Of a stretch of 30,158 nt of DNA, positions 4,311-25,581 are shown in pieces (position 1 is the stretch's first letter; every line of letters starts with the position of its first letter). Below the pieces are notes generated by a model that did not search any database, was not told the DNA's origin, and saw only the letters and a list, made by a program, of their open reading frames with translations. This DNA is from a virus, in IMG/VR virus record IMGVR_UViG_3300028025_001572, positions 1-30,158 of that record; one strand, written 5' to 3'. The position numbers were made by a program, and so were the translations under genes.

Positions 4311-5101
4311 CCACTGAAGCAACAACTGACCAACCCGCATCCAGCGGCCTATTGGACAATGTGCAAGTGACTGATGAAAGCACTCCATCAAATCCACAGG
4401 CCGTAGAGATTGAACACCGATCTGACACCACTGCGGCAACCAGTAAAGCACCCACAGGCGAGGATGACCCCCTAGAACGTCCAGACTTTTGGCCTGAGAA
4501 CTTCTGGAAGAAAGACTCCAACGAACCCGATCTAGAAGGCATTGCCAAGTCTTGGTCAGATCTGCGTAAGCAAATCAGCCAAGGCAAGCACAAAGCGCCA
4601 GCAGACGGAAAGTACGATATGAAAGCCTTTGGCGACAATGCTGAAGACAACCCCATGGCTAACACCCTGACTGGTTGGGCAAAGGACAATGGGCTGTCTC
4701 AGGCGGCTTTTGACGACTTGGTCAGCAACCTACAGACTCAGGCTCAGGAGATCATGGGCGGGGACATGGTAGACCCAGCTCAGGAACTGAAAGCCCTTGG
4801 CCCCAATGGGAAAGCCATGGTAGACGGCATGGTGAACTGGGCTAGAGGCTTGGTTAACAAGGGAGTCTGGTCGGCAGACGACTTTGAGGAGTTCAAGATC
4901 ATGGGCGGCACAGCTCGTGGAATCAGGGCTTTGATGAAGGTCAGGGAGTCTTATGAAGGACGTATCCCAATTGAGTCTGCCCCCCTGCCTGGCTCTTCCA
5001 GCAAGGATGAGCTGTACCAGATGGTGCAAGATCCCAAGTACAAGACGGATGCTGCATATCGCCAGAAGGTAGAGAAGATGTTCCAAGCGACATTTAAGTA
5101 A
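4307..5101 (+). CDS. Capsid assembly (scaffolding) protein
   Basis: Translation starts at TTG 4307, overlapping the upstream TGA by four bases, with GCGAGGA just before it. The 264-residue acidic, soluble protein has a disordered, Thr/Ser/Pro-rich N-terminus (about 1-65) and then a helical body with RPDFWPENFW and KAPADGKYDM. The C-terminal stretch, with KDELYQMVQDPKYKTDAAYRQKVEKMF, ends in a short basic helix, which in scaffold proteins is the part that binds the inner capsid surface. T7 scaffold has about 307 residues. Its place between portal and major capsid and the family-like P-D-x-x-e-nFW start support the call. A terminator follows at 5129. Confidence 0.88.
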   Translation: MTTEATTDQPASSGLLDNVQVTDESTPSNPQAVEIEHRSDTTAATSKAPTGEDDPLERPDFWPENFWKKDSNEPDLEGIAKSWSDLRKQISQGKHKAPADGKYDMKAFGDNAEDNPMANTLTGWAKDNGLSQAAFDDLVSNLQTQAQEIMGGDMVDPAQELKALGPNGKAMVDGMVNWARGLVNKGVWSADDFEEFKIMGGTARGIRALMKVRESYEGRIPIESAPLPGSSSKDELYQMVQDPKYKTDAAYRQKVEKMFQATFK

Positions 5102-5128
5102 AATCTCCAAGGCAAGCAGTTGCCCCTT

Positions 5129-5157
5129 AGCCCCTACTTGCGTGGGGGCTTTTTTTA
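5129..5157 (+). terminator. Rho-independent terminator after the scaffold gene
   Basis: AGCCCC (5129-5134) pairs with GGGGCT (5145-5150) around a short loop and is followed by a run of T at 5150-5156. It stands 28 bases after the scaffold stop and would separate the portal-scaffold transcript from the separately promoted capsid gene. The sequence around it closely resembles the terminator at 29375-29397. Confidence 0.85.
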
Positions 5158-5178
5158 TGCCATACTTAACTCCGTCAG

Positions 5179-5257
5179 CGTAACGGCACGACACCTAAAG
5201 CCCTTTGGCTCTAGCTTTCTATCCCTTATTTTGGGACACGCCGTTACGTGGAAAGCT
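5179..5257 (+). ncRNA. Candidate pseudoknotted RNA upstream of the capsid gene
   Basis: CGTAACGGC (5179-5187) is perfectly complementary to GCCGTTACG (5240-5248). Inside this nine-pair stem lie AGCC-CTTT-GGCT (5199-5210) and TCCC/GGGA (5222-5236). The inner AGCTTTC (5213-5219) is complementary to GAAAGCT (5251-5257), which lies outside the stem, so both helices together would form a pseudoknot. I compared it by eye with HDV-like, twister, pistol and hammerhead ribozyme cores and could not match any. It may be a structured leader, a ribozyme-like element or a processing site; existence as an RNA is inferred. Confidence 0.35.
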
Positions 5258-5549
5258 GGAACCAGAGGGTTTTTTCTTTCCCGACTCGGGAACTATGCGG
5301 CACGTCGGTGGTAGAACCTTAAATAACCCTGTTACACGAGCAAGCCAGAGCGGGGATGGTGGGCTAAGAATAGAGCCAGGTGGTAGGCCAGAAATGGCTG
5401 TAAGTCTGTTCAGTGCGATGCGATGACATGGCTCCGTAGGGCATGCATTCAAGCATAAGCGAACCTTGATTTTGATCACGGTAAGGCTGTGCTTTGCTCC
5501 AACATTCACCATAGGGCATATATATAAGTTAGATAATTGTTAACAGGTG

Positions 5550-5580
5550 TTGACAAGTGTTAAGAACTGATATATATAAT
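5550..5580 (+). promoter_or_regulatory. Sigma70-like promoter for the capsid gene
   Basis: A consensus -35 TTGACA at 5550-5555 and a consensus -10 TATAAT at 5575-5580 are separated by 19 bases, slightly longer than the ideal 17. The patch is the most AT-rich part of the region, with GTGTT repeated beside the -35 box. Transcription would begin near 5587, leaving a leader of about 135 bases before the capsid ATG. This would let the host polymerase make extra capsid mRNA after the terminator at 5129. Confidence 0.6.
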
Positions 5581-5722
5581 GTAAGCATAGGCATATCTGG
5601 CAACAGACCCTTAACCGCAGTGGATACTGAAGAGTGGCTGGCTTAACCAGCAAGCATTCGGCCCTGACTTTCAGGCTTACCGTGGCGAGAACCCAACTTA
5701 ATCAACCATGTGAGGTATCCAA

Positions 5723-6565
5723 ATGAGCATTTCTTTAAGCAATGCCTTTGTTACTCTATTCGATGCGGAAGTCAAGCAAGCCTACCAAGGTAAGGCAATG
5801 CTGGTTCCAGCGGTTCGCCAGCGTCGTGGAGTCGAAGGTTCAACTGTCAAGTTCCCTAAAGTCGGTCGTGGTGTTGCCACTGTCCGTGTTCCCCAAACTG
5901 ATGTTACCCCTCTGAACGTTGGCTTCAGCTCTGTCACTTTGACATTGGCTGACTACAACGCTGCTGAGTACTCTGACATCTTCTCCCAAGCTAAAGTCAA
6001 CTTTGACGAGCGCCAAGAATTGGTGCAAGTTGTTGCTGGCGCTATGGGTCGCCGTCAAGACCAGATGATTCTGGATGCCTTGGCTGCTTCCAGCACCAGC
6101 TTGACTGTTGCTAACAGCATCGGTGGCTCTACTACCAACATGAACGTGGCTAAACTCCGTGAAGCCAAGCGTCTGTTGGACAAAGGTAACGTTCCTCCTG
6201 ATGGTCGTCACATCATCATCCACGCTAACGGCTTGTCTAACTTGCTGTCTGAAACCAGCGTGACCAGCTCCGACTTCAACAGTGTGAAAGCATTGGTGCA
6301 AGGCGACATCAACACATTCTTGGGCTTCCAGTTCCATGTGTTGGGTGACCGCTCTGAAGGTGGTTTGGCTATCGACGGCTCTCTTGACCGCACTTGCTTT
6401 GCATTCCACAAGGATGCAGTTGGCTACGGTGAAGGTATTGCCATGCGTACTGAGATCAACTACATCGCCGAGAAGACTTCTTGGTTGGTGAACGAAGTCT
6501 TCAGTGCTGGCGCTGTTGCTATTGACGATGAAGGTATCGTCAAGATCACCTGCCGTGAAACTTAA
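5723..6565 (+). CDS. Major capsid protein
   Basis: This 280-residue protein is shorter than T7 gp10A (about 345). It begins with a typical capsid start (MSISLSNAFVTLFDAEVKQAYQ), then GSTVKFPKVG and a beta-rich stretch (TPLNVGFSSVTLTLADYNAAEYSDIF), followed by a long helix with VVAGAMGRRQDQMILDAL. The C-terminal half has RHIIIHANGLSNLL and FLGFQFHVLGDRSEGGL, as in the HK97-fold capsids of T7-like environmental phages. It would form the icosahedral shell. Its own promoter (5550) and leader, the ribosome-binding site GTGAGG at 5710-5715 and the neighbouring scaffold gene fit a highly expressed capsid. All 15 Arg codons are of the CGN type, a useful contrast with the right end of the window. Confidence 0.93.
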   Translation: MSISLSNAFVTLFDAEVKQAYQGKAMLVPAVRQRRGVEGSTVKFPKVGRGVATVRVPQTDVTPLNVGFSSVTLTLADYNAAEYSDIFSQAKVNFDERQELVQVVAGAMGRRQDQMILDALAASSTSLTVANSIGGSTTNMNVAKLREAKRLLDKGNVPPDGRHIIIHANGLSNLLSETSVTSSDFNSVKALVQGDINTFLGFQFHVLGDRSEGGLAIDGSLDRTCFAFHKDAVGYGEGIAMRTEINYIAEKTSWLVNEVFSAGAVAIDDEGIVKITCRET

Positions 6566-24755: not shown

Positions 24756-24916
24756 CAGAAGAGACTTTGGAGCAGCGCATCAGCCATCTTGAGCGCCAGT
24801 TTGAGCAGATGTCCGAGGCTTTTAGTGCCAACAGCCAGTTAATGGTGATGCTGGCAAGGGAACTGAAGCGGGTCAGGGATTGCCTGAGCGATGAAGATCC
24901 TATGGGGATGCAATGA
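24752..24916 (+). CDS. Small coiled-coil protein
   Basis: The 54-residue acidic product overlaps the RusA stop (ATGA at 24752-24755) and its own TGA overlaps the next ATG. It is one long helix with heptad-like hydrophobic positions: LEQRISHLERQFEQM, then NSQLMVMLARELKRVRDCL. This suggests a small coiled-coil dimer. Many phages have such leucine/glutamate-rich proteins without known function. Its close coupling between RusA and the Mom-like gene indicates joint expression only; partner binding is speculation. Confidence 0.75.
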   Translation: MTEETLEQRISHLERQFEQMSEAFSANSQLMVMLARELKRVRDCLSDEDPMGMQ

Positions 24917-25581
24917 AAGTTTTGCCAATTAATTCTTTTGAAGTTGAACCTTGGTTATTGGAAAAACATTATGCAAAACGCATGTGTCCAATTTCCTATG
25001 CGTTTGGGCTTTACAAAGATAGTCAACTTGTTGGCGTTGTGACTTATGGCGTACCTTCCAGCAGCAATTTACGGTCTGGCATTTGTGGAGCAGAGTACGA
25101 AAAAAACGTGATTGAGTTGAATCGCTTGTGTTGCAACAATGAGCCAAACTTTGCATCATATTTAGTTGGTAAATCTTTACAGATGCTTCCCAAGCCATTG
25201 ATTGTTGTTAGTTTTGCTGACTTAAAGCAAGGACATGTTGGATATGTTTATCAGGCTACAAATTTTGTGTATACGGGATTGAGTGCCAAAAGAACCGATT
25301 GGAAAATAAAAGGCATGGAACATTTGCACGGAGCAACAATTGCCGACATGAGTAGAGGTCAGCCAAACAGAGCCGAGTGGATGAAAGAAAAATTTGGTGA
25401 TGATTTTTACTTGGAAGACAGGTCAAGGAAGCATCGGTATATTTATTTTCTTGGAAGTAAAAAACAAAAAAAAACCATGATTGATGCATTGAAATACAAG
25501 ATAGAACCATATCCAAAAGGTGAGTCTAGACGGTATGACTCAGGAAATATCGTTAAAACTCAACAACTTTTATTTACATAA
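24913..25581 (+). CDS. Mom-like DNA modification protein
   Basis: The 222-residue protein resembles the Mu Mom family, GNAT-fold enzymes that turn DNA adenines into methylcarbamoyl-type derivatives and shield phage DNA from restriction. Motifs: EKHYAKRMCPISYAFGLYKD near residues 17-36, LVGVVTYGVPSS, VIELNRLCCNNEPNFASYLVG near 66-86 and LIVVSFADLKQGHVGYVYQATNFVYTG. The stretches fGL-y-x-d-x-l-vG-v-v-t-fG, v-ELnRL and hvGyiYqA-x-Nf-y-tG are family hallmarks. The gene is clearly more AT-rich than its neighbours (long A/T runs near 25440-25480), a sign of separate acquisition. It overlaps the previous gene by four bases. The 3' end holds poly-A tracts. Confidence 0.88.
   Translation: MKVLPINSFEVEPWLLEKHYAKRMCPISYAFGLYKDSQLVGVVTYGVPSSSNLRSGICGAEYEKNVIELNRLCCNNEPNFASYLVGKSLQMLPKPLIVVSFADLKQGHVGYVYQATNFVYTGLSAKRTDWKIKGMEHLHGATIADMSRGQPNRAEWMKEKFGDDFYLEDRSRKHRYIYFLGSKKQKKTMIDALKYKIEPYPKGESRRYDSGNIVKTQQLLFT

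Follow-up and report, generated by a model that had tools for sequence, protein, structure and literature searches.

Freshwater phages of many unrelated kinds carry one copy each of a structured RNA in which a pseudoknotted 5′ domain (domain I) leads, directly or via a linker, to a second domain (domain II) bearing two more covarying pseudoknots; domain I leads to domain II in this way in well over 100 viral contigs. The copy described here lies in a window of 30,158 nucleotides, the whole stretch of viral DNA that was analyzed, where the genes run portal, scaffold (ending at 5101) and capsid (starting at 5723), names taken from an earlier note on this DNA and from relatives. That note had seen a possible pseudoknotted RNA of about 80 bases ahead of the capsid gene; the element is much longer, spanning about 5174-5520 (roughly 350 nt) with further pseudoknots, and the region around PK1, the pseudoknot first noticed, is its 5′ domain. 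Coordinates are collected in Table 1.

The terminator that follows the scaffold gene also occurs in relatives without the element, and the capsid promoter is kept in relatives. A second structured leader occupies 5589-5686, directly 5′ of the capsid gene; it occurs in capsid relatives whether the element is there or not, with two-sided changes in 10 of 23 predicted pairs across 33 sequences.

Table 1. Features of the RNA and its immediate surroundings in the window
Feature	Position	Strand	Basis or remark
Terminator 3′ of scaffold gene, outside the RNA	5127-5157	+	stem AGCCCCTACTTGCGTGGGGGCT + T7
-10-like box CATACT of the element's own promoter	5161-5166	+	inferred RNA start about 5173-5174
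P1 hairpin	5174-5192	+	GTC 5174-5176 with GAC 5190-5192; PK1 strand in loop; alignment A1
PK1 5′ strand CGTAACGGC	5179-5187	+	P1 loop; covariation on alignment A1
P2 5′ strand AAAGCCCTTTGGCTCTAGCTTTC	5197-5219	+	fold and covariation
Mini hairpin CCC..GGG, tip of P2	5223-5235	+	compensated variation in relatives
PK1 3′ strand GCCGTTACG	5240-5248	+	bulge, 3′ side of P2
P2 3′ strand and T6 tract, intrinsic-terminator-like end of domain I	5251-5275	+	
Domain II, type A	5276-5520	+	about 245 nt; common to 23 contigs; diverged from type B/C
Type A hairpin (5281-5285 with 5304-5308) and its own pseudoknot (5289-5295 with 5312-5318)	5281-5318	+	alignment A4
PK3 5′ strand GGTGG	5358-5362	+	pairs with 5507-5511
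PK3 3′ strand TCACC, then Shine-Dalgarno-like ATAGGG	5507-5517	+	
Capsid gene promoter, downstream of the element (context)	5550-5580	+	TTGACA ... TATAAT

The 5′ domain and its pseudoknot

Both exact pairings that the earlier note had described are present: CGTAACGGC pairs perfectly with GCCGTTACG over 9 bp, forming PK1, and AGCTTTC (5213-5219) pairs exactly with GAAAGCT (5251-5257), crossing PK1 and making a true pseudoknot. The second helix needs recasting, since its seven exact base pairs are just the innermost part of a 22-bp terminator-like hairpin, P2 (5197-5219 with 5251-5273): AAAGCCCTTTGGCTCTAGCTTTC pairs over some 22 positions, and TTTTTT (5270-5275) follows. PK1 ties the P1 loop to P2, at a bulge on that hairpin's 3′ side. 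As to the two hairpins said to be enclosed by PK1, CCC..GGG is compatible with P2 and stays in the model; AGCC..GGCT competes with P2, is not conserved in relatives and was not kept.

That such a structure is beyond chance, as had been supposed, is evident from two comparisons. A 96-nt stretch folds better than its shuffles (z -3.0), and a scan for the architecture, defined as P1 plus a hairpin with a T-run plus a loop-bulge match of at least 7 bp, gave 120 matches in the fetched sequences, nearly all of them true relatives; shuffled sequence (1.48 Mb) gave 2. Compensatory changes, which the earlier note had proposed as its own test, are abundant in both helices among relatives. On alignment A1 the seven core pairs of PK1 form in 53 of 53 domain I sequences, six of the seven with two-sided changes, and 95% of P2 cells are paired, with two-sided changes in 11 of 15 pairs. 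The 53 sequences were chosen with PK1 in view, and we therefore ran a separate test anchored on a downstream motif only; here a PK1 complement of at least 7 nt is found in 49 of 58 distinct elements, as against 8% with swapped partners and 6% after shuffling.

The window carries P1, P2 and PK1, by which domain I of the new family is defined. Two models of the family, R1 and R3, both match 5171-5274, and for R3, which was built without the window's own type (type A, below), this is the best match (E 3e-4). Conservation in the same pairs is consistently lower for PK1 than for the remainder of domain I (0.73 vs 0.85). Close relatives differ more in the PK1 strands than in the parts of the domain around them, and type A alone has at least five PK1 alleles; this divergence fits selection for difference, and also plain structural neutrality.

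P2 has the GC-rich hairpin and U-tract of an intrinsic terminator, at which transcription may be predicted to end; it is missing from a consensus terminator scan because its loop is longer than that of a simple terminator. The T-run is retained in nearly all relatives; in two loci (L144 and L148) the T-tract is absent, with the P2 stem and PK1 retained.

Domain II and the variable linker

Domain I is common to three types of the element, A, B and C, type A comprising the window and 23 contigs. In type B/C the named helices of domain II form in 96.8% of cells (38 sequences), with a covariation score of 0.54 vs 0.14 for shuffles. PK2 is paired in 100% of cells in these 38 sequences, with two-sided changes in six of six pairs; when another 31 distinct sequences were aligned by a model lacking PK2, 96.6% of the PK2 cells were paired and again all six pairs show two-sided changes. 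PK3, a pairing of GGUGR (P9 loop) with YCACC at the 3′ end, is retained in types A, B and C; it is G-C in most and swapped for A-U in several B/C lineages (in L126, L143 and L194 it was read by eye from the sequences).

Domain II of type B/C (P4-P9 and PK2) was not found in the window by model R2, even unfiltered, and PK3 is the only feature that the window's domain II shares with it. Since R3 finds the window and R2 does not, domain I there is a member of the family; domain II of this copy either has diverged strongly or is a different module, and homology of the type A and type B/C domains is not supported. The type A hairpin with its own pseudoknot shows two-sided changes on A4, drawn from few haplotypes and with a two-pair mismatch in the window haplotype. 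A start codon follows PK3 in some type A relatives and is missing in the window copy.

Several candidate helices were set aside. A 7-bp hairpin, P3 (CCGUCAG/CUGAUGG), is broken in the wider set and was withdrawn, its invariance in the first set being due to the choice of contigs by that same 21-mer. A closing helix around domain II (CCCAAG/CUUGGG) is predicted by folding without covariation support and is not claimed, and a further candidate (no. 5) was out of register and dropped. A smaller hairpin around UCAGGGCG shows one compensatory exchange.

Between P2 and domain II lies a variable linker, in which some copies have a tRNA-like module, additional hairpins or an ORF. In L121, L131 and L187 a tRNA-like module of ~150 nt, with a T arm (CTGGTTCGAATCCAG) and acceptor-like ends, lies between the domains; ARAGORN does not call it. 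Protein-coding ORFs appear to occupy the same place in L277 (2294-1682, minus strand) and L330 (8338-7524, minus strand). In L169 a natural deletion after the 21-mer has removed the interior of domain II but spared domain I and also the 3′ end, together with its gene.

Loci, promoter and downstream genes

The earlier note had placed the RNA between scaffold and capsid genes; a tie to that locus does not hold, since copies occur at unrelated loci and are not capsid-specific. For comparison, 80 capsid homologues were fetched: the scaffold-capsid gap is ~245 bp without the element in most, and 590-650 bp with the element or a related insert in 14. One 21-mer retrieves 79 contigs of type C, and another pattern at least 120 stretches. 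Copies of type B/C are also found in a phage group without capsid, scaffold or portal match, and at another locus after a terminase-like gene. In 50,697 phage records searched, the one convincing match is in MW202484.1, a podovirus of lambda-like layout with its copy in the early region; the other rows are matches of 22-43 nt. Variovorax paradoxus 110B is the sole carrier among 301 genomes searched in its family. In what is probably a prophage, its copy of domain II (L341, 1246-1414) lies near and upstream of portal-, scaffold- and capsid-like genes, with no domain I adjacent.

Whole-record searches found one copy each in 20 of 20 carriers, weaker matches being the same hairpin on the other strand, and none in 20 of 20 capsid relatives. 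One copy per genome rules out a gate at every operon and a multicopy transposon. A protein partner was likewise rejected: no gene is common to all carriers tested, some of whose genomes are incomplete.

A TATAAT-like hexamer ends 7 nt 5′ of P1 (36 nonredundant elements), with A at -9 in 89%. At the other end, most type B/C copies have a start codon at a fixed distance, set by the conserved YCACCCUUGGGGAACCUAUG. Of 38 distinct elements located away from the capsid locus, 33 have an ORF that begins within about 45 nt of the conserved 3′ end, often at an AUG 16 nt from the start of CACCCU, or where the stop of a mini-ORF overlaps the next start. All 12 distinct scaffold-capsid copies examined have an intact RNA whose 3′ end is followed by mini-ORFs only (e.g. 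MPK, MSKNS), and the capsid gene there has its own promoter. L330 and L303 are without the AUG, as is the window copy.

The downstream genes are mutually unrelated, including Mom, a DNA methylase, a PAPS reductase, YbcO and unknowns; two are Mom-like, and the one scanned matches Pfam Mom. Elsewhere in the window, 24913-25581 encodes a protein resembling those that follow the element in L176 and L180; because the L176 protein is the one matching Pfam Mom, this resemblance makes a role in DNA modification likely.

Possible functions and relation to known systems

Our preferred reading, held tentatively and at somewhat less than even confidence, is that this modular single-copy element is a cis-acting transcript leader, combining a terminator gate with a translation start, and defines a new structured-RNA family of phages. 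RNA polymerase would start at the promoter that makes the P1 hairpin the 5′ end of the transcript; P2 would act as an intrinsic terminator whose side bulge is tethered to the P1 loop by PK1, and PK1 would set how frequently polymerase passes the T-tract, so that the product would be either a short RNA of ~105 nt or, after read-through, a long one. In the long form, domain II would fold with PK2 and PK3, and since PK3 lies directly 5′ of a Shine-Dalgarno-like segment, we propose that the long form may serve as a leader gating the following unit. The window copy has lost its start codon, so only the transcriptional part could apply there. Against a cis leader stand the unrelated downstream genes, the intact capsid-locus copies with no ORF following, the copies without an AUG (the window, L330, L303), domain II without domain I in Variovorax, and the loss of the T-tract in L144 and L148; furthermore, a nearby start codon is weak evidence, because phage genes are compact and co-oriented. 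We are more doubtful of a bolder reading, in which the element represents a hitherto unrecognized class of large phage RNA, with three pseudoknots, that serves as a protein-independent gate of transcription and translation, and in which PK1, as a hypervariable, co-evolving kissing helix, may prevent interference between the copies of different phages.

Nearly as likely as the cis leader is a large structured noncoding RNA that acts in trans, alone or with host proteins, in the manner of GOLLD and ROOL, its 3′ end simply abutting a gene. It owes this standing to copies that are intact where no gene depends on them, to the element's occurring once per genome and at unrelated loci, and to the unrelated downstream genes; the lack of a phage protein family common to all carriers tested and the variable linker agree with it too. 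It accounts less well for the co-oriented gene that usually begins right at the 3′ end outside the capsid locus, and for a terminator-like hairpin that is internal and not at the 3′ end.

We think it unlikely that the element is a nascent-RNA antitermination element like put of phage HK022, which suppresses distal terminators, and so protects transcription of the downstream operon with no phage protein. Both are promoter-proximal nascent phage RNAs, the element begins at a promoter with co-oriented genes following it, and no phage protein is common to the carriers tested; put itself requires no protein factor (PMC9378689). However, put is an RNA of ~70 nt with two stem-loops, present twice in HK022 (PMC9378689), and the element is ~350 nt, has another order of helices and is single-copy; in MW202484.1, moreover, minus-strand genes part it from the late operon.

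More improbable still is that domain I alone is the product, a promoter, a pseudoknotted small RNA of ~105 nt and a terminator, with domain II a separate leader: the compact promoter-terminator unit, the occurrence of domain II without domain I and the faster divergence of PK1 than of the remaining domain I would suit this, but the domains adjoin in most copies across unrelated loci and the T-tract is dispensable in L144 and L148. A protein-coding or chance structure is scarcely tenable, for although MW202484.1 annotates a hypothetical protein over the RNA and a long open frame is kept in 15 of 44 elements, no frame is open over 80% of the length in 29 of the 44, the commonest PK2 sequence has a stop in the sole frame that the conserved motif leaves open, and PK1, P2 and PK2 covary. 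The annotated protein, UOF77725.1 (33533-33892), is probably not a gene.

To our knowledge, phages have yielded only a handful of large structured RNAs, and the nearest of these all lack a settled function. With well over 100 contigs, covarying tertiary contacts, a predicted promoter and a Variovorax carrier, this one should be expressible, mutable and testable. It would add a missing family to RNA annotation, where one record now labels the element a hypothetical protein.

As the earlier note had anticipated of a new phage RNA, no scan gave an Rfam match: Rfam 15 returned none at the gathering threshold for the window and nine related loci, which rules out a known Rfam family, the large phage RNAs in Rfam included, and relaxed scans of four elements gave chance-level matches only. 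ARAGORN finds no tRNA or tmRNA in the loci scanned. The evidence speaks neither for nor against ribozyme activity, one of the roles that the earlier note had considered. Riboswitches and attenuators also use a terminator hairpin, and a pseudoknot beside a Shine-Dalgarno segment; here, by contrast, the downstream genes are unrelated and the terminator precedes the conserved domain instead of following it. In openly licensed papers on phage structured RNAs, antitermination and leader RNAs, the closest systems were GOLLD/ROOL, put and Mu mom, and nothing alike was found. The mom mRNA of phage Mu is controlled by Com (PMC6483171); control of a phage gene at the level of RNA translation is the likeness, and two of the genes downstream of the element are Mom-like, but Com is a phage protein, whereas no protein is shared here and the downstream genes differ. 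A homo-oligomeric nanocage is a hallmark of GOLLD and ROOL. Both have conserved domains and a variable linker, in GOLLD sometimes with tRNAs (PMC12286853). The element is shorter than these, has a promoter-proximal terminator-like hairpin, no Rfam match and no tRNA called by ARAGORN; like them, it is a large pseudoknotted RNA of phages and prophages. The RNA family appears to be new, and its kind, the large structured phage RNA or leader, already known.
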